In this document: piece by piece, positions 14,302 to 64,000 of the stretch
Layout: every line of letters starts with the position of its first letter
Numbering within the stretch: position 1 is the stretch's first letter
NCBI RefSeq assembly: GCF_013426895.1
Contig: NZ_AP023174.1
Location: forward strand, 3,658,001-3,722,000
From: Paraburkholderia largidicola
Lineage (GTDB): Bacteria; Pseudomonadota; Gammaproteobacteria; Burkholderiales; Burkholderiaceae
Length of the DNA stretch: 64,000 nucleotides
Reading direction: 5' to 3'
Program-made: the position numbers and the translations under genes
The notes under the pieces: generated by a model
What the model was told of the DNA's origin: nothing
The model's database searches: none
The model's input: only the letters and a program-made list of their open reading frames with translations

Positions 14302-14738
14302 CGTTCGCAGGGAAAGTTATTCACAGGCCGGGAACTGCCGCCGACACACTTAAAGTAAAACTTCAATTTCGGCGCTAAGTTTTGATTTTGCATCGACAAT
14401 TGCGCCCGACCTCGCCTGCCTGTGGATAACTTTGTTGAGAACTTGGCCCGGGTGTCCCGCAAGCGCCGTCGTACGGGCCTCTGTGTGGGAAACCGCACAT
14501 TTGTCTTAGGAACCCGGAAACCCTTGTCGCTCAAGGCCTTCAACAGATTTCCGCGAACTTTTCAAGGCGGCTGCGACGATCCATCCCTCTACCGCGCCGC
14601 AGCGTGACAAGTGTGCATAAGTCAAGTCTTGACAACGCCAAGAGGGCCTCGGGGCGGACTTTGGAACGCTATTTTCCCCTCACGCCGAGAGCCCACGTCG
14701 TTGCATCGCAACAAAAACGTCACAATCCGGACGATGCC
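14302..14738. other. 437-base intergenic region between priA and hemE with DnaA-box-like sites
   Basis: No protein-like frame is present. The region contains a perfect DnaA box (TGTGGATAA, 14421-14429) and two single-mismatch boxes (TTATTCACA at 14317-14325; TGTGCATAA at 14612-14620). It should also hold the priA promoter and the hemE 3' end. I could not identify a clear -35/-10 pair or terminator. Confidence 0.5.
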
Positions 14739-28654: not shown

Positions 28655-29545
28655 TTATGCAGCCGCTGCGTTGCCCCGCAAGCGGGCGAGAATCCCTTCC
28701 AGCGCATCGAGGTCGCCGAAATCGACGAGCACCTGCCCTCGCCCCCGGCGTCCGAGCTTGATCTTCACCGTAGCGGCGAGCAGATCCGACAGTTCCTCTT
28801 CGAGCCGTCGCGTGTCGCGGCCACCGTCGTTGTTCGCTTTCGCCTTGACAGCGGGTACCGCCTTCGTCGTCGCCGTGACCAGCTTTTCGGTTTCACGCAC
28901 CGACATGCGCTTGTTGACGACCTGGTTCGCGAGTGTGATCTGCGTGGCACCGTCCACGGCAAGCAGTGCACGTGCGTGGCCCATGTCCAGATCGCCGGCG
29001 AGCAGCATCGTTTGCACGGGCGACGCCAGATTCAGCAGACGCAGCAGATTCGACACCGCACTGCGCGAGCGCCCTACCGACTCGGCCGCCTGCTCGTGCG
29101 TGAAGCTGAACTCATCGAGCAGCCGCTGGATACCCTGCGCCTCTTCCAGCGGGTTCAGGTCCTCGCGCTGGATATTCTCGATAAGCGCCATCGCGGCAGC
29201 AGCCTGATCGGGCACATCGCGTACGAGGACAGGCACTTCTTCGAGACCAGCAAGGCGCGCAGCGCGAAAACGCCGCTCACCCGCAATGATTTCAAACTTT
29301 TCCGCAGAGACAGGCCGCACCAGAATCGGTTGCATCAGACCCTGCGCGCGAATGCTAGCCGCCAGTTCCTGCAGTGCACCCTCGTCCATGCGGGTGCGCG
29401 GCTGATACTTGCCCGCCTGCATCTTGTCGAGCGGCAACGTGTGAGGTGCGCCGTTGATCTTCACCGCTTCCGTGATATCCGCGCTTCCGCCGAGCAGTGC
29501 CTCCAGCCCCCTGCCCAACCCCTTCTTCCGTGCTACTGCGTTCAT
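28655..29545 (-). CDS. parB: Chromosome-partitioning protein ParB (CTP-dependent DNA clamp)
   Basis: Binds parS, loads as a sliding clamp and spreads along DNA for origin segregation. The N-terminus RKKGLGRGLEALLGG is the ParA-interacting motif; the CTP-binding box GERRFRAARLAGL is near residue 88; the parS-binding helix-turn-helix (THEQAAESVGRSRSAVSNLLRLL) begins near 147; the C-terminal ~50 residues form the dimerisation domain. The ATG at 29545 has GAGGA at good spacing; an earlier ATG at 29587 overlaps the parA stop (ATGA) and would add 14 residues. Two perfect parS sites lie 2-4 kb away. Confidence 0.97.
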   Translation of the reverse strand: MNAVARKKGLGRGLEALLGGSADITEAVKINGAPHTLPLDKMQAGKYQPRTRMDEGALQELAASIRAQGLMQPILVRPVSAEKFEIIAGERRFRAARLAGLEEVPVLVRDVPDQAAAAMALIENIQREDLNPLEEAQGIQRLLDEFSFTHEQAAESVGRSRSAVSNLLRLLNLASPVQTMLLAGDLDMGHARALLAVDGATQITLANQVVNKRMSVRETEKLVTATTKAVPAVKAKANNDGGRDTRRLEEELSDLLAATVKIKLGRRGRGQVLVDFGDLDALEGILARLRGNAAAA

Positions 29546-29583
29546 CGTGGTTCCTCGATCCGCTTTGGATGATTGACGCTGCG

Positions 29584-30354
29584 TCATAGCAGGCGCACCC
29601 GCTCGATCATTTCCGCGCCGAACTGCACATAAGCCTGCGCGCCGCGCGATGCGCGGTCGAACACGACACCCGGCAGGCCGTAACTCGGCGCCTCGGCGAG
29701 TCGCACGTTGCGCGGAATGACGACGTCGAACACCTTGTCTCCAAAATGCTCTTTCAGTTGTTCCGATACCTGCTGTTGCAGCGTGATGCGTGGATCGAAC
29801 ATAACGCGCAACAGGCCGATCACCTTCAAGTCACGGTTCAGGTTCGCATGCACCTGCTTGATCGTATTGATGAGGTCCGACAGGCCCTCGAGCGCAAAAT
29901 ATTCGCATTGCATCGGGATAACGACGCCGTGCGCGGCGCAAAGGCCGTTCAGCGTCAGCAGCGAGAGCGCGGGAGGACAGTCGATCAGCACGAAGTCGTA
30001 GTCCGCCACGACGTGAGAAATCGCCTCCTTGAGCTGACGCTCGCGATTCTCCATGCCCACGAGTTCGACTTCGGCACCGGCAAGTTCGCGGTTCGCCGGC
30101 ACGACATCATATGAAACGGCTTCCGACTTCACTCGCGCGTCGGCCACCGACACGCCGTCGACCAGCACTTCATATACCGTGTTCTCGCAAGCGGCCTTGT
30201 CGACGCCACTACCCATGGTGGCGTTGCCTTGCGGATCGAGATCGATGAGCAGGACCCGCTGTCCCTGCGATGCGAGGCTCGCGGCGAGATTGACCGCGGT
30301 CGTCGTTTTGCCGACTCCACCCTTCTGGTTCGCAACGCAGAAGATTTTTGCCAT
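29584..30354 (-). CDS. parA: Chromosome-partitioning ATPase ParA
   Basis: Deviant Walker ATPase that binds DNA non-specifically and moves ParB-parS complexes. The 256-residue protein starts MAKIFCVANQKGGVGKTTTAVN, the deviant Walker A motif with the signature lysine. The Walker B-like segment is DYDFVLIDCPPALSLLT. It lacks the N-terminal regulatory HTH of plasmid-type ParA, which places it in the chromosomal Soj group. It lies between rsmG and parB on the minus strand. Confidence 0.97.
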   Translation of the reverse strand: MAKIFCVANQKGGVGKTTTAVNLAASLASQGQRVLLIDLDPQGNATMGSGVDKAACENTVYEVLVDGVSVADARVKSEAVSYDVVPANRELAGAEVELVGMENRERQLKEAISHVVADYDFVLIDCPPALSLLTLNGLCAAHGVVIPMQCEYFALEGLSDLINTIKQVHANLNRDLKVIGLLRVMFDPRITLQQQVSEQLKEHFGDKVFDVVIPRNVRLAEAPSYGLPGVVFDRASRGAQAYVQFGAEMIERVRLL

Positions 30355-31081: not shown

Positions 31082-33036
31082 TGAGCCACCGGCGAGTTGT
31101 CGGTGCCAGCGCCAGCAGGCTTCTGAGCGCGCCGACCGAGGCCACGCTTCAGGTGAACCATCAGGAGCGAGATAGCGGCTGGCGTGATGCCCGAGATGCG
31201 CGACGCCTGGCCGATCGTTTCCGGGCGGAACTGCGTCAGCTTCTGACGCGCCTCGAACGACAGCCCACGGACCTCCGCGTAGTCGAGGTTTTCCGGCAAT
31301 TTCGTGTTCTCGTGTGCCTCGTTTCGTTCGATCTCACCCGCTTGCCGCTCGATATACCCCTGATATTTGACGCCGATCTCGATCTGCTCCTTGATCTGTG
31401 CGAGCAGCACTTCGTCGTTGGCGAGCGCTTCGGCCGGACCGCAGGCGCCTTCGCGCAGCGCGCAGACGCCGTCGTACGACACGCCCGGACGCCGCAGCAG
31501 ATCGGCGAGGCTGTACTCGTGGTCGATCGGCTTGCCGAGCAATGCCGTCGCTTCCTCAGACGAAAGCGTCTTCGGATTGACCCACGTGGTACGCAGCCGC
31601 TCTGTTTCACGTGAAACAGCGTCGCGTTTCCGGCTGAATGCATCCCACCGCTCGTCATCCACCACGCCGAGTTCACGCCCGATCTCGGTCAGACGCATGT
31701 CGGCGTTGTCTTCGCGCAGGCTCAAGCGATATTCCGCGCGGCTCGTGAACATCCGATACGGTTCGGAGACGCCACGCGTCACCAGATCGTCAACCAGCAC
31801 GCCGAGGTAGGCCTGATCGCGGCGCGGGCACCACGCTTCCTTGTCCTGTACATACAGGCCAGCATTGATCCCCGCCAGCAGCCCTTGCGCCGCCGCCTCT
31901 TCATAGCCCGTCGTTCCGTTGATCTGACCGGCAAAGAACAGGCCGTTGATCACCTTCGTTTCCAACGATGCTTTCAATCCGCGGGGATCGAAGTAGTCGT
32001 ACTCGATTGCATAGCCCGGACGCAGGATGTGTGCATGCTCCAGACCGACCATCGAACGAACCAACTCCAGCTGGACGTCGAACGGCAGGCTCGTCGAGAT
32101 CCCGTTCGGATAGAACTCGTTCGTGGTCAAGCCTTCCGGCTCGAGAAAGATCTGATGCGACTCTTTCGACGCAAACCGATGAATCTTGTCCTCGATCGAC
32201 GGGCAATAACGCGGGCCAACGCCCTCGATCACGCCCGTGTACATGGGCGAACGGTCCAGACCGCTACGGATGATGTCGTGCGTTTGCGAATTCGTGTGCG
32301 TGACCCAGCACGGAACCTGACGCGGATGCTGTTCGACACGCCCAAGGAACGAGAACACGGGGACCGGATCGAGATCGCCCGGCTGCTCTTCCAGCTTCGA
32401 GAAATCGATCGTACGGCCGTCGATACGCGGCGGTGTGCCCGTCTTCAACCGGCCCTGCGGCAGCTTCAACTCCTTGAGCCGCGCTGACAGCGACACCGCT
32501 GCCGGGTCCCCTGCTCGCCCGCCCGTATAGTTATTGAGGCCGACGTGGATTTTCCCATCGAGGAACGTGCCGGCCGTCAACACGACCGCACGCGAGCGGA
32601 AACGAACCCCGACCTGCGTCACAGCGCCGACGACGCGGTCGCCTTCGACCATCAAATCGTCGACAGACTGCTGAAACAGCCAAAGATTCGGCTGATTTTC
32701 GAGGCGATGGCGGATCGCCGCCTTGTACAGAATGCGGTCAGCCTGTGCGCGGGTCGCCCGAACGGCGGGCCCCTTCGACGAGTTGAGAATACGGAACTGA
32801 ATCCCGCCTTCGTCAGTGGCAGCCGCCATTGCGCCGCCGAGCGCGTCGACTTCCTTGACCAGATGGCCTTTGCCAATGCCGCCAATCGACGGATTGCAGC
32901 TCATCTGACCGAGGGTTTCGATGTTGTGCGTTAGCAAAAGCGTCTTGTTGCCCATGCGCGCGGACGCCAAAGCGGCTTCCGTGCCGGCATGACCGCCGCC
33001 AACGACGATTACGTCAAACTCTGTGGGATAAAGCAT
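31078..33036 (-). CDS. mnmG: tRNA uridine-34 5-carboxymethylaminomethyl modification enzyme MnmG (GidA)
   Basis: FAD-dependent subunit that acts with MnmE to modify the wobble uridine of several tRNAs. The FAD-binding motif [17 protein letters not shown] begins near residue 12, and the family segments [22 protein letters not shown] and [17 protein letters not shown] are present. The ATG at 33036 ([15 protein letters not shown]) is used in preference to a start four codons earlier. A perfect parS palindrome lies inside the coding sequence at 31602-31619 and encodes part of AVSRETERL. It is first in mnmG-rsmG-parA-parB. Confidence 0.97.
31602..31619. other. parS: parS centromere site within mnmG
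   Basis: TGTTTCACGTGAAACA (31603-31618) is a perfect match to the universal chromosomal parS consensus and is extended to an 18-bp palindrome by flanking C/G. It lies inside mnmG, about 2 kb from parB. ParB would nucleate here. Confidence 0.93.
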
Positions 33037-33138: not shown

Positions 33139-33170
33139 AAAAAACGGCGTGTTTCACGTGAAACACGCCG
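33139..33170 (-). terminator. Intrinsic terminator of the first liv operon, built on the parS palindrome
   Basis: Read on the minus strand, the 26-base palindrome at 33145-33170 folds to a hairpin with a GC-rich base and runs directly into six Ts (As at 33139-33144 on the plus strand). It lies 37 bases after the livF stop codon and 103 bases before the mnmG start, the expected place for a liv terminator. Confidence 0.7.
33145..33170. other. parS: parS centromere site between mnmG and the first liv operon
   Basis: The core TGTTTCACGTGAAACA (33150-33165) is the perfect parS consensus. It is extended on both sides by CGGCG/CGCCG to a 26-bp perfect palindrome. It lies 1.53 kb from the copy within mnmG, in the intergenic region upstream of mnmG. 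Confidence 0.93.
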
Positions 33171-55975: not shown

Positions 55976-57088
55976 TCAGCGCTGACCGAAGGAAATATCG
56001 CCGAACAGCGCCTTCTGTTCGCGCGGTTGCGAGCGCCAGTATTGCGGCGGAGCGTCCACCGTCGCGCCGAGTTGCGCGGCCGCGTGCCACGGCCAGCGCG
56101 GATCGTAGAGCATCGCGCGGGCCATCGCGATGAGATCCGCGTCGCCCTCTTCGATCAGCCGGTTCGCGTGCTCGGGGTCCGTGATCAGGCCAACGGCCAT
56201 CGTCGTCATGCCTGTCGCTTCCTTCACTGCCTTTGCGAACGGCACCTGATAGCCGGGTTCGAGCGGGATCTTCTGCAACGGCGACACGCCACCCGACGAC
56301 ACATCGACCCAGTCGCAGCCGCGCTTCTTCAACTCTTGCGCGAACGCGATCGTGTCTTCGATCGTGATGCCGCCATCCACCCAGTCGATTGCCGAGACGC
56401 GCACGCCGACGGGTTTGTCGGCGGGGAATGCGGCGCGCACGATGTCGAAGATTTCGAGCGGAAAACGCATACGATTTTCGCGCGAGCCGCCGTATTCGTC
56501 GCTGCGCTGGTTCGCAAGCGGCGACAGGAACTGATGCAGCAGATAACCGTGTGCGGCATGCACTTCGAGTGCATCGATGCCCAGACGCGCAGCACGCCGC
56601 GCCGACGCTGCGAACGCCTCGCGGATGCGGTTGAGACCCGCGTTGTCCAGCGCGAGCGGCGGCTCCTCTCCGGCCTTGTGCGGCAACGCGGACGGCGCAT
56701 GCGGCAGCCAGCCGCCGTCGGCGACGGGAATCAGTTGCCCGCCTTCCCACGGCACGTTACTCGAAGCCTTGCGCCCCGCGTGCGAGAGCTGCATCGCGAC
56801 GTGCACTTTCGAGTGCTTGCGGATCGCGGCGAGCACAGGCTTCAGGGCTTCTTCCGTCGCGTCGTCCCACAGGCCGAGGTCGGCAGGCGTGATGCGGCCA
56901 TCGGGCTCGACGGCCGTCGCCTCGATGCACAGCATGCCCGCGCCCGACAGCGCAAGATGGCCGAGATGGATCATGTGCCATGCCGTCGCTTCGCCGCGTT
57001 CGGCAGAGTATTGACACATCGGTGACACGACAATGCGGTTCGGCAGCGTCACGCTACGCAGCGTGAGCGGAGTGAAAAGTGCGCTCAT
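55976..57088 (-). CDS. NADH:flavin oxidoreductase, old yellow enzyme (YqjM type)
   Basis: A 370-residue FMN-dependent ene-reductase. The motif PMCQYSAERGEATAWHMIHLGHLALSGAGM carries the YqjM-class cysteine, and AAHGYLLHQFLSPLANQRSDEYGG and the C-terminal ARAMLYDPRWP are family features. It reduces alpha,beta-unsaturated carbonyls or nitro compounds with NAD(P)H. An upstream ATG at 57106 would add six residues; neither start has a strong ribosome site. It stands alone. Confidence 0.92.
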   Translation of the reverse strand: MSALFTPLTLRSVTLPNRIVVSPMCQYSAERGEATAWHMIHLGHLALSGAGMLCIEATAVEPDGRITPADLGLWDDATEEALKPVLAAIRKHSKVHVAMQLSHAGRKASSNVPWEGGQLIPVADGGWLPHAPSALPHKAGEEPPLALDNAGLNRIREAFAASARRAARLGIDALEVHAAHGYLLHQFLSPLANQRSDEYGGSRENRMRFPLEIFDIVRAAFPADKPVGVRVSAIDWVDGGITIEDTIAFAQELKKRGCDWVDVSSGGVSPLQKIPLEPGYQVPFAKAVKEATGMTTMAVGLITDPEHANRLIEEGDADLIAMARAMLYDPRWPWHAAAQLGATVDAPPQYWRSQPREQKALFGDISFGQR

Positions 57089-57186
57089 GGTGGTGGGATT
57101 ACCCATCGAAACTCAAGAGCGATCGAGGATAGCACCGGGTCCGATTTGCTGCAGACGGCCAGGCGCGTCCCTTTCAACAGGGTGAG

Positions 57187-57918
57187 TCAGCTTTGACTGT
57201 GAGGCGTATCGAGGCGCTTCGACCACGATTCGACTTCGCCGCTTTCGAGGCGCTTCATCGCGGTCTTGCGCCACGATGGCGTCAACGTGTCGAGCTGTGC
57301 CATCGCCTCCAGCGCCTGCCGGTCGTCGCGATCGACATAGAGCACGCGCAACAGGCGCTCGACGCTCCACTGCGCGTGAGGACGCGCGAGCCGCTCGATT
57401 GAATCGCCTGCGCCGACTTCGCCCGCTTCGAGCACGCGGTAATACCAGCCCGTGCGGCGCGTGTTCTGCACGGCGCGCGACATGTCGGCGCGCGCGAACC
57501 GCAGGTTCAGTTTCCAGCACGGCTGGCGAGGCTGCGATACCTGAACGATCGCCCCGCCGATCCGGTACACGTCGCCGACGCAAACATCCGCTTCCGTCAG
57601 GCCGCGCGTGCTGAGGTTTTCGCCGAATGCACCGCATCCGTCGAGCGTCGACAGACCGGAGGTGCCCGCCTGCCATTCGCTGCGCCAGGTTGCGTAGTGG
57701 TCGAACGGATAGTGATGCAGCGCTTTTTCCGGGCCGCCGTGATGCTTGAGTTCGGCCTGCTGATCACCTTCGAGGCCTGTTTCGCCCAGCCACACACGGC
57801 CATCGACAGGCGTCTTGCCGATCGCACTCGTCTTGCCCGGCAGGTCACCGTCCAACGGGGCGATCTTGCCGGTCAGCACGGCATCGACGGTAGAAGCGCG
57901 GTGATCCACGACGGTCAT
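57187..57918 (-). CDS. MOSC-domain protein (YiiM-like)
   Basis: A 243-residue protein of the MOSC family, which uses a molybdenum cofactor bound through a cysteine. The segment QPRQPCWKLNLRFARADM contains that conserved cysteine, and GLEGDQQAELKHHGGPEKALHHYP is a typical YiiM motif. Members reduce N-hydroxylated compounds such as 6-hydroxylaminopurine. It starts 10 bases after the stop of the amidotransferase gene, so the two form a transcription unit. The longer frame to 58002 is a shadow. Confidence 0.9.
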   Translation of the reverse strand: MTVVDHRASTVDAVLTGKIAPLDGDLPGKTSAIGKTPVDGRVWLGETGLEGDQQAELKHHGGPEKALHHYPFDHYATWRSEWQAGTSGLSTLDGCGAFGENLSTRGLTEADVCVGDVYRIGGAIVQVSQPRQPCWKLNLRFARADMSRAVQNTRRTGWYYRVLEAGEVGAGDSIERLARPHAQWSVERLLRVLYVDRDDRQALEAMAQLDTLTPSWRKTAMKRLESGEVESWSKRLDTPHSQS

Positions 57919-57928
57919 TGGGATGTGT

Positions 57929-58642
57929 TCAGGGTCGCGCGGCCAGCTGATCGAGCCATTCGCCGAACATGCTGGTCGCCGCGGCCTCCAGCTTCGGGCC
58001 ATGCTTCGCGGTATCGGCGCGCAGCGTGCGCACGTCGATGCCGTGGCCCGCGATTTCGCCGGCGTTGCCGATCAGCCAGGGCTCGAAACGGTCAGTGCGG
58101 ATTTCAGGGTGACATTGCAGGCCAAGCACATGCTTGCCCCACGAGAACGCCTGGTTCTCACAGGCCGGCGTGGAGGCGAGATGCACCGCGCCTTGCGGAA
58201 GATCGAATGTATCGCCGTGCCAATGAAGCATCGACGTGTGCGCTGCATCCAGATGCCGCAGCGGCGACTGCTTGCCGGCATCGGTGAGCGTCAACGGCGT
58301 CCAGCCGATTTCCGTCTGCCCCGACGGATAGACTCGCGCGCCGAGCACACGCGCGATCAGTTGCGCGCCGAGACAGATGCCGAGCGTCGGCAAGCCTGCG
58401 GCGATACGCTTTTCGATCATGGAGACCAACGGCGCGATGGTCGGATAGCGATCGTCGTCGTAGGCGCTGATTGGACCGCCGAGCACCACCATCAGCGACG
58501 GCATCACGGGGTTGGGCGCCTCGATGCGCGCGAAGCCGACATCCAGATAGCGGACAGGACGCCCCCGCTCGCCGAGCACCCGTTCGAGACTGCCCAGATC
58601 CTCGAAGTGCACATGGCGGATGGCGAGAACTTCGTGATGCAT
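57929..58642 (-). CDS. Class-I glutamine amidotransferase-like protein (GuaA-type domain, unassigned substrate)
   Basis: A 237-residue stand-alone amidotransferase. The nucleophile is Cys90 in GICLGAQLIARVLGA, and the catalytic histidine and glutamate are in LQCHPEIR. There is no synthetase domain, so it is not GMP synthase; such proteins may hydrolyse gamma-glutamyl or other amides. The ATG at 58642 is used because the upstream TTG lacks support; GGTGGGA lies eight bases before it. It precedes the MOSC gene. Confidence 0.88.
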   Translation of the reverse strand: MHHEVLAIRHVHFEDLGSLERVLGERGRPVRYLDVGFARIEAPNPVMPSLMVVLGGPISAYDDDRYPTIAPLVSMIEKRIAAGLPTLGICLGAQLIARVLGARVYPSGQTEIGWTPLTLTDAGKQSPLRHLDAAHTSMLHWHGDTFDLPQGAVHLASTPACENQAFSWGKHVLGLQCHPEIRTDRFEPWLIGNAGEIAGHGIDVRTLRADTAKHGPKLEAAATSMFGEWLDQLAARP

Positions 58643-58787
58643 CGGCAAATCCCACCGTCAGGTTGACTGGACGCGCCCAAAGGCGCGCCGGAAGACACGC
58701 CGTCTGCCGATGCGCAAAACGGCGCAAGCTCGCCCGCCCCGCTCGCGCAAACCCACGAGCGGCGGCCGGCTCAGCAGTTTAGCCGAC

Positions 58788-59432
58788 TCAGGCTTGCTGC
58801 GCGAAGATCTTCCAGGTCTTTTTCTGCGTGGCGGCGTCGGCCGTTTCGTGTACCGAGCAGTCCAGGCGCAGATCGGTATCCGACATCGACAGATCGAGCA
58901 GCATGCAGCGATGCGGCGTTTTCTTCGGGTTCTTGCTCGGCTCGAAATGCGTGCAGGTCACGCACATCCGGTGCGGCGGAATGTGGCCTTGCACTTCGAG
59001 CTGACGCACGGTCTTCAGCAACGTGCGATAGAAGATCGATTGCTCTTCGTCGCGCAGCGTGCCGACCGCCTTCGCGAGGAAGTCGGGCCATTGCGCGGCG
59101 CGCTTGGCCGCAGTGCGGCCGCGAGCCGTCAGACGCACGGCCAGCGCGCGCCCGTCGTCGAGCGCGCGGCGCTTTTCGACGAGACCCTTGCTTTCCAGCG
59201 TGCTCACGGCATCGCTGGTGGTCGCGGCCGTCAACGCCGTTTCGCGTGCGATTTCGCCGAGCCGCATCGGCCCCTTGCGCTGCATCAGCAGCACGAGGAT
59301 TTCGCCCTGGGTAGGCGTCAGACCCGCGCCTTCCGCCCATTCCCATGCCTGGCTCCGCATGGCCGTGCTGAGTCGCAGCAGGCTGTGGGTCACCCGCCCG
59401 GTTGCCTGCTCTCCGTATACGCCTTCGCTCAT
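58788..59432 (-). CDS. MarR-family regulator with a cysteine-rich C-terminal extension
   Basis: A 214-residue regulator. Residues ~15-145 form the MarR winged helix (LTPTQGEILVLLMQRKGPMRLGEIARETALTAATTSDAVSTLESKGLVEKRRALDDGRA). A C-terminal extension holds CVTCTHF, HRCMLLD and LDCSVHE, four cysteines plus histidines in a pattern that suggests a metal or redox site (inference). The start at 59432 is supported by GAAAGA upstream; the frame to 59531 is not protein-like. It is divergent to no obvious target; the gene upstream is the gshA-like ligase, beyond a large gap. Confidence 0.88.
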   Translation of the reverse strand: MSEGVYGEQATGRVTHSLLRLSTAMRSQAWEWAEGAGLTPTQGEILVLLMQRKGPMRLGEIARETALTAATTSDAVSTLESKGLVEKRRALDDGRALAVRLTARGRTAAKRAAQWPDFLAKAVGTLRDEEQSIFYRTLLKTVRQLEVQGHIPPHRMCVTCTHFEPSKNPKKTPHRCMLLDLSMSDTDLRLDCSVHETADAATQKKTWKIFAQQA

Positions 59433-59930
59433 AGTCTTTCGTTCGTTGTTGACAGCGTGCCGTTGCCCGTCGACATCCGATTTCCGATGCCGGCGCGCCG
59501 ACAGTCTGTGGGGGGAAGCTTCGCCGGTCAATCCGGCTCGCCGATTCCTACTATCTCAAAAACTTCCTGCGATGCGGGCCTTGTCCCGGCCGCTTACTCA
59601 GGCTTTGCAAATGTTCATGCAGTGCGACTGCTGCAATCTGGGCCACGCATCGACGTGATCCTGGCAGGCCGCAACGACGAAAAACGACATTCTATGCGAG
59701 AGCGGCAAATCGTACAGCTAAGTTATCCAATGCAATCTGTGGATAACCACGGGATAAGACGGGGGACGACATGTGCGTCGATTCTTGATAACTCCCTCGA
59801 CCCCAGCAGCGATGAGAATCGTTCTCCCAGGTTTACGGCCGGGATGCACGCCCGATCCGCGTGGTTATAGTTTACGCAGCCTCTTGAGTTTGCAGGGAAT
59901 TATTTGGTTGTCCACAGGCAAACGCAATGC

Positions 59931-59951
59931 TTGTTAACTACTACTACGTAT
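59931..59951 (+). repeat. Left copy of a 21-bp inverted repeat
   Basis: TTGTTAACTACTACTACGTA with one more T matches, in opposite orientation and with one mismatch, the sequence at 63207-63227. Beyond the 21 bases, both copies continue into related TACGTA/GTAAAC-containing sequence. Confidence 0.8.
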
Positions 59952-60005
59952 GTATACGTAAACTTTGAGAAAAGCTGGAGAGCGTCCTATCGGTCTTCGA
60001 TAAAA

Positions 60006-60031
60006 AGAAAAAAACCCGCAAAAAGCGGGTT
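60006..60031 (-). terminator. Intrinsic terminator of the glutamate-cysteine ligase gene
   Basis: On the minus strand AACCCGC and GCGGGTT pair around TTTTT and run into at least seven Ts. It lies 87 bases past the ligase stop codon at 60118. Confidence 0.85.
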
Positions 60032-60117
60032 TCGTTGAGTCTGCCTGACGACGAGGCAATGACATGCGACGCGCCAGCCGCGCCGGATTGCATCGTGCGG
60101 CCTGTACGCGCCAGCTT

Positions 60118-61233
60118 TTAGGCGCGCCACTGCAGGCACTGCTGCCGCACCACTTCATGCAGCGATTGTTCCTGTTCGGACACATTGCGCAACCAGGTCG
60201 CATCGTTCACCTGCCCACGCGCGATCGCGCCGATTTCTTCGAGCGCCTTGCCCGAGCCGAGCGCATCCGCATGCGGCGCGATGCGCTCGAGCGTGTGAAT
60301 GATGTCTTCGGAGATCGTACGGCGCTCACCCGTCTGAGGATCGATACACGTGCCCGCCAGACCGAAACGGCAGGCCTCGAAACGGTTGAACGTGTAGACG
60401 AGATAGTCGTCTTCCTTTGGCATCAAAGGCTTGTCGAGCAGCAGATGACGCGCGAGCGTCTGGATGTAGCAGGCAATTGCGGCCGCGCGATCGACGGAAA
60501 GCGGCGTGTCCATCACGCGCACTTCGATGGTGCCGAAGCCGGGCTTCGGCCGGATATCCCAGTAGAAGTCCTTCATGCTGTTGACGACGCCCGTGTGCAC
60601 CATCTTCGAAAAGTACTCTTCGAAGCTGTCCCACGTGAGGACGAACGGTGCGCGGCCCGACAGCGGGAACGCGAACACGGAATTCAGGCGTGCCGAGTGA
60701 AAGCCCGTATCGACGCCCTGCACGAACGGCGACGACGCCGACAGCGCGATGAAGTGCGGTATGTAGCGCGACATCGAATGCAGCAGGAACAACGCGCTAT
60801 CGGCATCCGGGCAGCCGATGTGCACGTGCTGGCCGAATACCGTGAACTGCTTCGCGAGGTAGCCGTAGAGTTCCGAAAGGTACTGAAAGCGCGGCGTGTC
60901 GACGATCTTCCGCTCGCTCCATTGCTGGAAAGCGTGCGTGCCGCCGCCGCACAGGCCGACGTTCAGCCGGTCCGCCGCGGCGACCAGCGTGTCGCGAATG
61001 GTGCGCAGATCGGCGACGGCCTGTTCGTGCGTCGTGCAGATGCCCGTCGACAGCTCGATCATGCTTTCGGTGATTTCCGGCGTGATATTGCCTGGGATCT
61101 TTTCGTCCTTGATGAGCCGGAGCAGGTCGGTTCCGGCTTTGGTCAGATCATAGTCATGGGTATTGACGATCTGCATCTCGAGTTCGACACCGAAGGTGAA
61201 CGGTTTCGAATCGACGAAGGCTTCGAGTGACAT
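60118..61233 (-). CDS. Glutamate-cysteine ligase 2 family (YbdK-type carboxylate-amine ligase)
   Basis: A 371-residue ATP-dependent ligase of the GCS2/YbdK family. The N-terminus [13 protein letters not shown] is the glutamate-binding start of the fold, and GQHVHIGC and [13 protein letters not shown] are active-site motifs. YbdK has weak gamma-glutamylcysteine synthetase activity; the true substrate is often unknown, though in this lineage the gene is commonly annotated gshA. It is followed by a clear terminator and preceded by the antiporter gene on the same strand. Confidence 0.88.
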
Positions 61234-61355
61234 AGCGTTTCCTGATTCATGTCGGCATCAGCGCCCGATACGGGCGGCGCCGGCTGGATTGACTGTCGAA
61301 TGCTGCAGCCGAACGCTCGAGCTGCATGAAAAATAGAGGGTGCCGGCTTTCCGCT

Positions 61356-62558
61356 TTACTCGCGGCGTTCGCCCACCAGCGCGAGCGAGCGGTAGACGAG
61401 CCAAGGCCCGACCAGCTGCAACACGACGATCGAGCACATCGTGACCGCGCGCAGTGTCGGATCGAAATTCGGATAGAGCTGGTAGGTATCGTCGACGAGC
61501 AGATACGCGAGCGCCGACATTGGCGACAGCGATAATCCCAGCGCCATGCCCTGCTTCATGTCGAGTCCGCTCGGCTTGGCGAACGCGAGCACGCCGACCA
61601 GCTTGGCCACCAGCCGCGCGACGATCAGTCCGACGGCGGCCAGGCCGCCCAGCGCCACGTCGTGCCATTCGAACGTCGTCAGCGTGAGCACGAACAGAAT
61701 CACCGTCAGCAGCCAACCCGCCGTGCCGAAATGCTCCGGCCAAAGTTGCGGGCGCGCTTCCAGATTCTTCACGATGATGCCCGCCGCGAGCAGGCTGAGA
61801 ATCGTCGACAGTTTGAAGATATGCGCGACGGCAATGGCGAGCAGCACGAGGCCGAACAGCGCGACGAACGAGTGCTCGTCCTGCAGATTCACACGCTTGT
61901 AAAAGAACGTGATGGTGCGCGCGAGCAGGTACGCGAGGATCAGCGAGCCGATCAGCAGATACAGCGGCTGAAGAATGGTCGCGAGCACGTTGCCGTAGGC
62001 TTCCTGATGCAGCCAGCCGGACGCGAGCTTCTCGACGATCACCGCATACATGCTGTTGAGCGCCGTCAGCGTCAGCAGGCGCTGCGTGACCTGGCCTTCG
62101 GCGCGCACCTCGGTTTTCAGCTGGATGACCATCGCGGGTGAAGTCGCCATCGCGATCGACGCAAGCACGAGCGCCGTCACCGACGACACGTTCAGAAACA
62201 GCAGCACCAGCAGCACGAGCACGAACGTGAGCGTCGATTCGGCGATGCTCGACACGATCAGCCACGTATTGCGGCGAATCCAGCGCAGATCCAGCCGGCT
62301 GCCGAGCTCGAACAGCAGCAGGCCGAGCGCGACATCGAGCAACGGGCGCGCGGTGCTTGCCGAGTCCGCGTCGATCACGCCAGAACCCGCCGAGCCCGCG
62401 ATCAGCCCGATCACGGCATAGCCGGAAATGCGCGGCAGATGCCACGCGCGATAGCACAGCTCGCCGACGAGGCCTGCGGCGAGCAAAGCGAGGCCTGCCC
62501 AGAAAATGGCATCGGGCGTGAGCGGCCAGCCTGGAAAGAATGAAAACGCCGACTTCAT
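61356..62558 (-). CDS. CPA2-family monovalent cation:proton antiporter
   Basis: A 400-residue inner-membrane protein with about eleven helices, the KefB/NapA-type fold. The unwound-helix region LALLAAGLVGELCY at the start, TRHLAP-type loop ASIAMATSPAMVIQLKTE, and the C-terminal RAVTMCSIVVLQLVGPWLV are visible. It lacks the cytoplasmic RCK domain of Kef systems. The start MKSAFSFFPGW has AGGAG upstream; the open frame to 62711 is spurious. Sits between the ligase and the gap that precedes mnmC. Confidence 0.88.
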   Translation of the reverse strand: MKSAFSFFPGWPLTPDAIFWAGLALLAAGLVGELCYRAWHLPRISGYAVIGLIAGSAGSGVIDADSASTARPLLDVALGLLLFELGSRLDLRWIRRNTWLIVSSIAESTLTFVLVLLVLLFLNVSSVTALVLASIAMATSPAMVIQLKTEVRAEGQVTQRLLTLTALNSMYAVIVEKLASGWLHQEAYGNVLATILQPLYLLIGSLILAYLLARTITFFYKRVNLQDEHSFVALFGLVLLAIAVAHIFKLSTILSLLAAGIIVKNLEARPQLWPEHFGTAGWLLTVILFVLTLTTFEWHDVALGGLAAVGLIVARLVAKLVGVLAFAKPSGLDMKQGMALGLSLSPMSALAYLLVDDTYQLYPNFDPTLRAVTMCSIVVLQLVGPWLVYRSLALVGERRE

Positions 62559-63206
62559 CGTGGTGGCTTCTCCTTGGCAGCAACACCCGGCAACGCGAAC
62601 GGGCAGACGACGTCGGCACGCAAAGCGCGCGCCGCGTCCGTTGCCGCGATCGGTTCGCGTCTGCCGGCGTTGCGGGTTGTCAACGATCGGGTGAAAAACT
62701 GAAACGACCACGCCGATGCCGCATGACTACGGGCAGCCCGACGTGAGTGAAAAGAGCGCCGTCGACTTTTGAATCAGATTCTGTGGGTCCGGCAACCGTT
62801 CCATTTGGCGCGTCGGTTGCGGGGGCAAAACGCGACGCGGAAGAACGGCGATTGTGCCATAGCTTTTTTACACTTGACGGAAAAGCGTCGAACGAGCGCT
62901 CAAAGCGGTAAAACGTACGCTAACTTCAGGGCAACAGGAAAAAGCGACCGGAAAATGCGTGTGCTTTGGGGAAGATCGGCCTTATCAGTCGCGCATTTGC
63001 AAGTCTGAGAGGGACCTCGCGCAACGCATGTTCACCGTGCTTGCGTTTGAGTGCCGTTCCGCTCAGGCGTTCCGGCTTCTCAACGATGAACAGCAAACAA
63101 GACGGTCCGTGAAGCGAAGCGGGTATTGCGAAATTCTTAATAGGAAAGAGGATGCCGCCGGAGGCCGACCCACTGAGGGCTCTTCATCAATAGGTTTACT
63201 GTACGT

Positions 63207-63227
63207 ATACGTAGTAGAAGTTAACAA
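63207..63227 (-). repeat. Right copy of a 21-bp inverted repeat
   Basis: Read on the minus strand it is TTGTTAACTTCTACTACGTA plus one base, differing from the left copy at 59931-59951 at one position. The two copies face each other across a 3.3-kb block that holds the ligase and antiporter genes. Confidence 0.8.
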
Positions 63228-63421
63228 GGCCGCTGCATTTCTGTGGATAACCCGGGTTTACCGAAGCGAATCAGCGTCTTGCCGAACGCATAACCGGATG
63301 CACTTGATGTGCGCGCCCGGCTGGGTTCGATGAATAACTTTTGGCCAAAGTTTACGTCCGGCGAGTTACCCCGTTTACGTCCACATCCGATCCACACGAG
63401 TTTCGCCCGCATTTTTCCCGG

Positions 63422-63455
63422 TTATCCACAACGCGCCGTGGATAACTTTTCCACA
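63422..63455. other. Cluster of DnaA boxes
   Basis: TTATCCACA at 63422-63430 is a perfect box. CGTGGATAA (63437-63445) and TTTTCCACA (63447-63455) each differ from consensus at one base. Three boxes within 34 bases are far above chance. They lie ten bases before the mnmC stop codon. Confidence 0.75.
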
Positions 63456-63464
63456 GGAAGATAG

Positions 63465-64000
63465 TCAGTTCGCGGTGCCCTGCCGTAGCGCACGCAAGAG
63501 AAAGCGCGCGGGATCGAGCGCTTCGGCGAGATCCCGTTCGATGGGCCACGGCTCGCCCTCGATCTGCGAAGCGATCAGTTCCGCGCCCAGCGACGCCCAT
63601 ACGAGTCCGCGCGAGCCAAACGCGAATGCGCCATATAGCCCTTGCGCGCGAGGCAGATCCAGTGGCCACGCGCCGCGCAGCTTGTCTGCTTCATGAGTCG
63701 CGGCGGCTTCGTCGGCGAAGGCGCCGATCATCGGCAAACGGTCACTCGTCACGCAGCGAAACGCGACGCGCCCTGCCAGCGACGAAGGGACGTGCATATC
63801 GGTTGCATCGCGCATGTCGGGCAGCATCTGTGCAACGCGCTCGATGTTCTCGGTGTGCGCGTCATCGCGTATTTGCGTGTCGGGATCGTCGATGTCATAG
63901 GTTGCGCCCGTCAGCGTGGTGCCATCGGGCAGCGGCACCGCGTACCCTTCGCCGATCACGGGGACCCGCAACGCGTGCGTCGCATCGCTGGGCAGCAGCG
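63465..64000 (-). CDS. mnmC: C-terminal part of MnmC (tRNA mnm5s2U biosynthesis bifunctional protein), truncated by the window edge
   Basis: The frame is open to the end of the window, so about the last 178 residues are visible. They form the end of the FAD-dependent C-terminal domain that converts cmnm5U to nm5U (EGYAVPLPDG, FRCVTSDRLPMIG, GLYGAFAFGSRGLVWASLGAELIASQIEGEP). The N-terminal methyltransferase domain should lie beyond 64000. Together with mnmG in the same window, two steps of wobble-uridine modification are near each other. A stand-alone FAD oxidoreductase (MnmC2 only) is possible. Confidence 0.85.
   Translation of the reverse strand, partial: LLPSDATHALRVPVIGEGYAVPLPDGTTLTGATYDIDDPDTQIRDDAHTENIERVAQMLPDMRDATDMHVPSSLAGRVAFRCVTSDRLPMIGAFADEAAATHEADKLRGAWPLDLPRAQGLYGAFAFGSRGLVWASLGAELIASQIEGEPWPIERDLAEALDPARFLLRALRQGTAN

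Follow-up and report, generated by a model that had tools for sequence, protein, structure and literature searches.

Where on its primary chromosome does Paraburkholderia largidicola begin replication? The question is raised by a stretch of 64,000 nucleotides of contig NZ_AP023174.1 (assembly GCF_013426895.1; C1 hereafter), which we call the window and which covers C1:3658001-3722000 in a genome of 9.47 Mb on five contigs, C1 itself being 3,759,946 bp long. Near the right end of the window, two gene-poor segments flank a ybdK-type gene and a Na+/H+ antiporter-family gene, and a preliminary description made from the sequence alone had proposed that the two segments form a bipartite replication origin (oriC), with dnaA elsewhere. 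Our analysis agrees that the locus is very probably the oriC of the primary chromosome. We also consider it probable, from comparison of sequences, that the locus holds two whole oriC units mirrored around the two genes, in which the right unit would be the main one, the left unit would assist, and further copies on the same chromosome (satellites) would be retained copies of the unit.

The case begins with the DnaA boxes, counted as sites with at most one mismatch to TTATCCACA. As the preliminary description had stated, the two segments hold six of them (59738-, 59908+, 63242-, 63422+, 63437- and 63447+; window positions with strand), the window as a whole having 12. Among 200 sequences simulated from the window by a first-order Markov model, with the same length and dinucleotide content, none had more than two boxes in any 270-bp interval, and the right segment holds four. 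The boxes are thus clustered beyond chance, and the locus has the cluster of high-affinity DnaA boxes by which an oriC is recognised. Both segments are AT-richer, as described, with a G+C content of 48.6% and 51.3% against 61.7% for the window. The inverted repeat that they share, given earlier as 21 bp, is present; it measures 22 nt, is 95% complementary (59930-59951 / 63207-63228), and is part of a larger unit of fixed geometry. The seven reported GTTTAC hexamers were also recovered (seven GTTTAC/GTAAAC in the two segments vs. two in the rest of the window), and they form a subset of a broader motif, GTWWAC, with 11 of its 16 window sites falling within the two arms. This motif is not enriched window-wide (16 seen vs. 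15.4 expected), whereas its local maximum of six per 270 bp compares with at most four in the simulations.

As separate observations on DnaA boxes, a further cluster of three lies at 14317-14620, 45 kb left of the origin pair and without the module described below (14317+ and 14612- have one mismatch, 14421- is perfect). The second contig (C2) has two close pairs of DnaA-type boxes, at C2:1560104-1560138 and C2:2433452-2433578, which are possibly that contig's own origin or a DnaA-responsive site.

Each gene-poor segment forms an oriC-like unit of ~250 bp, and the two units face each other across the ybdK-type gene and the antiporter gene. We name their boxes after R1 and R4 of Escherichia coli, where we take the unwinding element to lie on the 3' side of R1. 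When the arms are aligned on their R1-like boxes, they have a common order of TTRTCCACAG, 12 free nucleotides, CTTGTTAAC, three triplets, an AT-rich run, and GTAAAC. The parts of the two arms are as follows.

59720..59983, plus strand: left arm (D unit), its unwinding end pointing rightward, toward the ybdK-type gene; module with no mismatch at C1:3717908, profile score 64.5 bits
59738..59746, minus strand: left-arm R4-like perfect DnaA box, outward-facing, 170 bp from the R1-like box
59831..59963: five GTWWAC sites of the left arm, at 59831, 59870, 59933, 59952 and 59958
59908..59916, plus strand: left-arm R1-like DnaA box TTGTCCACA, followed by G
59918..59929, plus strand: left-arm spacer of 12 nt, fixed in length and free in sequence
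59930..59937, plus strand: left-arm CTTGTTAA, in which TTGTTAA is invariant across 44 D arms
59938..59946, plus strand: left-arm DnaA-trio-like triplets CTA CTA CTA (3'-GAT on the opposite strand)
63180..63472, minus strand: right arm (U unit), the best conserved, its unwinding end pointing leftward; module at C1:3721220
63194..63378: six GTWWAC sites of the right arm, at 63194, 63205, 63220, 63256, 63350 and 63373
63212..63220, minus strand: right-arm DnaA-trio-like triplets CTT CTA CTA
63221..63228, minus strand: right-arm CTTGTTAA, in which TTGTTAA is invariant across 76 U-side arms
63229..63240, minus strand: right-arm spacer of 12 nt
63242..63250, minus strand: right-arm R1-like perfect DnaA box TTATCCACAG
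63422..63430, plus strand: right-arm R4-like perfect DnaA box, 180 bp from the R1-like box
63437..63455: two extra one-mismatch DnaA boxes, 63437- and 63447+

The R4-R1 spacing in the four copies of the unit in this genome is 180, 170, 181, and 170 bp (the last with a two-mismatch R4-like box), which makes two spacing classes ~11 bp apart, near one helical turn. Because this spacing and the orientation of the boxes match the oriC of E. coli K-12, each arm is organised like a complete oriC rather than like one half. The triplets were compared across 76 U-side and 44 left arms of full length, including the window's two arms and two units of a Robbsia locus (L091). Their middle T is kept in 347 of 360 cases, a count that is partly ascertained because the pattern by which arms were selected (at most three mismatches) contained these bases. 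A pyrimidine (C or T) stands first in 358 of 360, and the third base of the first triplet in the right arms is A in 18, C in 1, G in 26, and T in 31. Read on the opposite strand, the triplets are 3'-[G/A]A[N]-5' and follow the DnaA-trio rule, in which the middle A is the key base; Bacillus subtilis DnaA captures the first two bases, and the third faces away (PMC10721633). The conserved triplets and the AT-richer segment are signs of a putative unwinding element in each arm. A hairpin in the left unwinding segment did not stand out clearly (z -1.13, with 31 of 200 shuffled sequences folding equally well).

An orphan methyltransferase conserved across Burkholderiaceae methylates adenine in GTWWAC (PMC5390034), and methylation of GTWWAC and of CACAG, the second methylation target in B. 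cenocepacia, has been reported at the origins of that species (PMC7364216). The single match in our genome to PF01555 (N6/N4 DNA methyltransferase), C2:2055302-2055961, is a candidate for the GTWWAC enzyme. The G that follows the R1-like box, giving CACAG, is nearly invariant (73/76 U-side arms, 44/44 left arms).

Strand composition places the switch at this locus. The cumulative GC-skew minimum lies at C1:3718268 (window 60268), between the arms, in tiles of both 302 kb and 540 kb. Samples of 20 kb along C1 are positive in 14 of 16 up to 1.58 Mb, negative in all ten at 1.74-3.38 Mb, then positive at 3.48-3.50 and 3.598-3.618 Mb and negative until the last part of the window, so that the sampled sign changes fall near 3.72 Mb and in the interval 1.58-1.74 Mb. 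The sole DnaA-family match in the genome is at C1:665; on a circular C1, dnaA would be 39.4 kb rightward of the right arm. In five genomes, the distance from the minimum to the right unit is 2.6-5.9 kb, as against 42-73 kb to dnaA and 43-105 kb to the third copy of the unit; the earlier placement of the origin here, and not at dnaA, thus agrees with the skew in all five. Among the relatives, the minimum is 2.6 kb from the right unit on its left-arm side in G392, 0.3 kb and 0.2 kb from the left arm in G325 and G318, and 2.7 kb beyond the left arm in G320. KOPS-like GGGHAGGG motifs, also sampled, point away from the locus (right, 12 plus and 3 minus; left, 1 plus and 13 minus).

Which arm marks the switch was addressed with the coding-strand skew at four-fold sites, for which matches below 70% length or 45% identity were excluded and two genes yielded no loci. 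The two genes between the arms are the following.

60118..61233, minus strand: ybdK-type gene (GCS2 family, Pfam PF04107)
61356..62558, minus strand: Na+/H+ antiporter-family gene (Pfam PF00999)

Their four-fold skew is +0.092 (ybdK, 80 loci) and +0.165 (antiporter gene, 78 loci), which is how genes on the leading strand of a fork moving left behave. Past the right arm, the first two minus-strand genes have -0.054 (71 loci) and -0.030 (67 loci), and a plus-strand gene further right is leading (+0.082, 62 loci). Left of the left arm, the minus-strand genes at 55976-57106 and 57187-58002 have +0.043 (63 loci) and +0.052 (7 loci), and the plus-strand gene has +0.008 (70 loci). We weight the right arm above the left because the four-fold sites put the between-arm genes on the left replichore, and on balance the skew would appear to switch at the right arm. 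Raw skew alone was dropped as a means of choosing between the arms since the four-fold sites disagree with it.

Relatives' loci were gathered by a YbdK scan of their contigs, and the best 80 loci of 584 relatives were used; the closest are from Paraburkholderia and Burkholderia. With up to three mismatches allowed, 74 of 80 loci have the right-arm module, 43 of the 78 whose sequence reaches far enough have the left-arm one, and 39 have both; at least two DnaA boxes stand at the left arm in 67 of 78. The left arm of B. singularis (L069) retains the module. Near ybdK, the three Pandoraea loci carry the left-arm unit and no other, and Robbsia (L091) has, upstream, two units that point the same way. 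Beyond these loci, the module pattern (at most one mismatch) was found in 8 of 300 Burkholderiales genomes, and a profile search gave matches at E <= 0.001 in 9 of 150 genomes and, within the family, at E <= 0.01 in 103 of 120. From this spread, the unit as modelled is mainly a feature of Burkholderiaceae; the profile was built from that family and searches of more than 40 genomes were filtered more strictly, so diverged forms may escape. Direct tandem units ~0.4-0.5 kb apart, not mirrored, were seen at L091 7375-7910 (Robbsia), at G364 C1:161705-162265 (another genus of the family), and at G006 C1:5138110-5138571 (another family).

The alternative that fares best is a classical bipartite origin, in which the right arm alone would open while the left arm, its triplets a relic, would be a looping DnaA-box enhancer; we regard this as quite possible, if short of an even chance. 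The locus does have two box clusters split by genes, as a bipartite origin does, and the four-fold skew switches at the right arm. Among the 35 loci without the left module, 28 retain at least two boxes (four have one, three have none). Nine Burkholderia left arms keep TTATCCACAG with the triplets absent, and in B. subtilis oriC1 loops to oriC (PMC6669920, PMC13220808). A relic is harder to reconcile with the 43 of 78 loci whose left arm retains TTGTTAA, the spacer of 12 nt, and triplets in a lineage-specific form. An unwinding-type element in one half only is what the sequences suggest for the nine Burkholderia loci, and not for the window or 39 relatives' loci. Because both arms carry a trio-like element and the unit recurs on the chromosome, we do not read the locus as an ordinary bipartite origin, and the word "bipartite" is the part of the preliminary description that we would withdraw.

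Several points weigh against two mirrored whole units with the right one leading. The left triplets are gone in most loci of Burkholderia sensu stricto and in several of Paraburkholderia, which can therefore do without a second opening site; the right unit alone must suffice in most Burkholderia because the left triplets are missing. The loss caused by selecting arms on the pattern is small for right arms (74/80 loci pass) and large for left arms (43/78), and sampling by YbdK covers only origins next to ybdK. The distance from the R1-like box to the first triplet, 21 nt, exceeds the 16 nt that the published search for BUS elements permits (PMC8287927). As to the switch, the five-genome tiles were centred on the locus and so compare it with dnaA and the third copy rather than with the whole chromosome, and the raw skew minimum is at most 0.4 kb from the left arm in three of the five genomes, in conflict with the four-fold sites. 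The four-fold test itself rests on few genes, one of which, at 58771-59346 on the minus strand left of the left arm, has the opposite sign (-0.022, 48 loci); since both between-arm genes exceed all left-hand genes, gene-specific effects also enter it.

The unit is not confined to the pair. Our genome has four exact matches to the module (up to two mismatches allowed, 9.47 Mb searched; none with a reversed control), the two additional ones being C1:14527+ (M3, ~+53 kb) and C1:3481721- (M4, ~-240 kb). With a core profile built from 39 units, all 58 genus genomes searched carry two to four copies (two in 11, three in 23, four in 24), so that more than one oriC-like unit stands on one chromosome. 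In the 31 closed genomes tabulated, of 37 searched, the top-scoring unit was taken as the right unit, and some distances lack correction for circular wrap. An inward-facing pair 2.9-4.5 kb apart is present in 20 of them, a right-side copy at +41 to +126 kb in 17, all pointing away from the pair, and a left-side copy at -144 to -304 kb in 15, with orientations divided 10 vs. 5; additional copies lie elsewhere in G393, G389, and G421. The tabulation omits G437, G444, and G410 (one copy), G364 (two direct copies ~0.5 kb apart), and G372 and G405 (three weak copies each).

We compared 31 satellite units, 17 of M3 and 14 of M4 (including the far copy of G393). TTGTTAA is identical throughout and the triplets are 88% identical, as against 38-39% for the spacer and 46-50% for the interior, a core conservation that is partly ascertained, the core having served as the search profile, and the 31 units are kin by descent. 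All 31 also have an R4-like box (at most two mismatches) at 168-170 or 179-181 bp; this box was not used in finding the satellites, and by our own estimate chance would supply it in ~3% of units. Five Burkholderia-type M3 units have C in the middle of the second triplet.

The satellites do not all share one history. In a tree of 56 units, which like the 31-unit comparison omits G421, G364, and G437, the M3 copies of our genome's clade (G000, G339, G350, G318) fall inside the right-arm clade beside the right unit of G318 (support 0.892); own-clade U and M3 units together have a support of 0.997, and M3-U identity within genomes is 72-78%. Because of this nesting and identity, own-clade M3 is read as a recent duplicate of the right unit. 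Other M3 and M4 copies form separate groups, and the left arms group together weakly (0.618). The idea of M3 as one orthologous site was rejected since other M3 lineages stand elsewhere in the tree than the right-arm clade. In our genome and G318, M3 lies between genes for an AraC-type regulator and a DbpA-type helicase, and in G320 and G325 it is ~11.6 kb from dbpA. A gene whose product has SIS and glutamine amidotransferase domains is close to our M4. M4 copies have neighbouring reading frames common to groups of four or five genomes, so these copies have stayed in place for some time.

What the satellites do is less clear-cut. We favour retained oriC copies that would at least bind DnaA and perhaps open DNA. 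A second reading, possible though less likely than not, is that they are DnaA sinks or reactivation sites that arose from old oriC copies and would time initiation without ever firing, like datA and DARS, sites with DnaA boxes that lie apart from the origin and lack an unwinding element. Their strong boxes fit such a role, and so does their distance from the pair, no more than ~300 kb in most of the tabulated genomes with satellites. A pure sink would have no evident need of the fixed 12-nt spacer, TTGTTAA, and triplets, yet these are kept (with the reservation that the core was used in the search), and satellites that keep triplets are unlike datA or DARS in this respect; the objection is weaker for the five Burkholderia-type M3 units with their altered second triplet.

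Conversely, the right unit, the left unit, and the satellites might all be used at times, with starts spread within ~300 kb, a multi-origin chromosome that we think unlikely. It would account for the box, spacer length, TTGTTAA, triplets, and R4-like box found together in all 31 satellites and for the two to four copies in every genus genome searched, and local skew lends it something. At 15 kb, skew steps run in the direction of a start site at six of seven satellites in five genomes, ranking in the top 3-10% of controls in five, at 26% in one, and at 87% in the M4 of G320, which fails; Fisher p is 0.005 (15 kb), 0.019 (25 kb), and 0.014 (35 kb), while the 25-kb scale puts no more than three of the seven below 8%. 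The cumulative-skew minimum of our genome in 3.44-3.54 Mb, at C1:3479347, is 2.3 kb from M4, and a shallow minimum lies near M3 (4-kb bins). The skew is near zero from C1:3479347 to ~3.56 Mb. Because controls overlap and gene orientation is uncorrected, these steps are suggestive only; the controls are also autocorrelated and two of the seven tests share ancestry. The partly ascertained core and common descent of the 31 units likewise count against many origins, as does the marker frequency of B. cenocepacia in 10-kb bins, read in its source as one origin region (PMC4948915). In genome group g6, which we take to be Burkholderia, third copies at 41-61 kb would be hard to resolve in bins of that size. 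The general form of the idea, that primary chromosomes of Burkholderiaceae have, as a mirror pair where the skew switches and as satellites to one side or both, several whole opening-competent oriC units of which more than one fires, and which duplicate and move within the origin region, seems doubtful to us as well. These readings overlap with one another and with parts of the one we prefer, so their probabilities are not meant to sum to one. Finally, a main origin at dnaA with the present locus as a regulatory box cluster is highly improbable and was rejected, for despite a perfect DnaA box at C1:3759839, ~0.8 kb ahead of the DnaA-domain match if C1 is circular, there is no skew switch at dnaA in any of the five genomes and the search of the 9.47-Mb genome with up to two mismatches found no module there.

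Under the preferred reading of two mirrored whole units, initiation could proceed as follows. DnaA-ATP would bind the strong boxes and then fill the unit, extending from the R1-like box onto the 3'-GAT strand, where the duplex would open. The right unit would be the main initiation site, opened at its triplets. The left unit would join through DnaA-DnaA contact across a 3.3-kb loop and add DnaA capacity, and where its triplets are intact it could serve as a second opening site, so that the mirror pair would provide an opening site for each helicase. GTWWAC methylation may mark old vs. new origin copies, like GATC in E. coli.

If so, the locus matters in several ways. The exact origin of the B. 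cenocepacia primary chromosome has been left open in print (PMC4948915), and a defined unit says where to look; more generally, the unit is a practical oriC marker in a family where dnaA and the origin are apart. A mirror pair whose arms each have an unwinding-type element would be a natural test of how helicases are loaded in opposite directions, a process described as unclear (PMC10201434), and satellites with such an element would allow a test, in a natural setting, of the long-standing question of whether multiple DnaA-type origins can serve a single bacterial chromosome (PMC4403523).

The wider setting of the locus agrees with the preliminary description, which had pointed to a nearby parABS system and to a run of minus-strand genes from mnmG to atp. 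The partition features are listed here.

28655-29587, minus strand: ParB gene (Pfam)
29584-30354, minus strand: ParA gene (Pfam)
31603-31618 and 33150-33165: two perfect parS sites, one within mnmG and the other just upstream of it

These parABS components are 27-35 kb from the origin pair, and the two sites are the sole copies of GTTTCACGTGAAAC, the perfect parS, in the 9.47-Mb genome, with the ParA and ParB genes adjoining. In addition to them, there is a partial parS core, TTCACGTGAA, at window 34502. Pfam agrees with the gene reading where tested: the minus strand encodes ParB, ParA, GidB, and MnmG at 28.7-33.0 kb, and genes for two ATP-synthase subunits are at 20-24 kb.

Compared with known systems, the single unit is closest to the oriC of E. 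coli K-12, which has outward-facing outer perfect boxes 180 bp apart when measured in the same way. That origin is monopartite, in one copy, and beside mnmG, whereas here a facing pair lies 27-30 kb from mnmG; its GATC may have a counterpart here in GTWWAC. The trio-like element resembles BUS in its box, spacer, and three triplets with a conserved middle A on the bottom strand, and it has the at least three NAN trios that BUS requires. It differs in having 21 nt between box and triplet, with the near-fixed TTGTTAA inside, and the distance rule holds solely when a four-mismatch box, TTGTTAACT, counts (hand count); since 21 nt is beyond the published limit, we call the element BUS-like and not BUS. 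The bipartite origins of B. subtilis and Helicobacter pylori likewise have two DnaA-box clusters separated by one or more genes. In such origins, both halves have DnaA boxes, one half has the unwinding element, the spacer gene is usually dnaA, and the whole origin is at most ~2 kb long (PMC4285127), unlike the 3.3 kb, two unrelated genes, and unwinding-type elements in both halves found here. Among relatives, chromosome 1 of B. cenocepacia J2315 is alike in the reported GTWWAC and CACAG methylation at its origins (PMC7364216), and the DnaA boxes of the B. cenocepacia origin region have been mapped (PMC4948915); the repeated unit, trios, and satellites do not appear in the text descriptions compared, and our guess is that the present locus corresponds to the J2315 DnaA-box cluster near nt1. 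Among the titles and abstracts listed in a literature search, with subscription literature mostly outside its scope, none describes a repeated whole oriC unit with trio elements, twin unwinding elements in a mirror pair, or satellites. Published origins away from dnaA, with DnaA boxes where the skew switches, are known from Cupriavidus and Burkholderia. On chromosome 1 of Cupriavidus metallidurans CH34, dnaA is ~90 kb from the skew switch, which has three perfect boxes within 213 nt and four weaker boxes farther upstream, and the passages describing it report no unit structure (PMC2864759). A natural single-chromosome Vibrio cholerae has two functional origins, of different type (PMC6284228, PMC10225481). 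More than one oriC-like sequence per chromosome is also known from Ralstonia pickettii 12D, with putative double origins, and from Pseudomonas aeruginosa, with two autonomously replicating elements of which only one was essential (PMC4403523). In those cases the two sites came from skew and box counts or from cloning, whereas here a defined unit recurs in two to four copies per genus genome searched.

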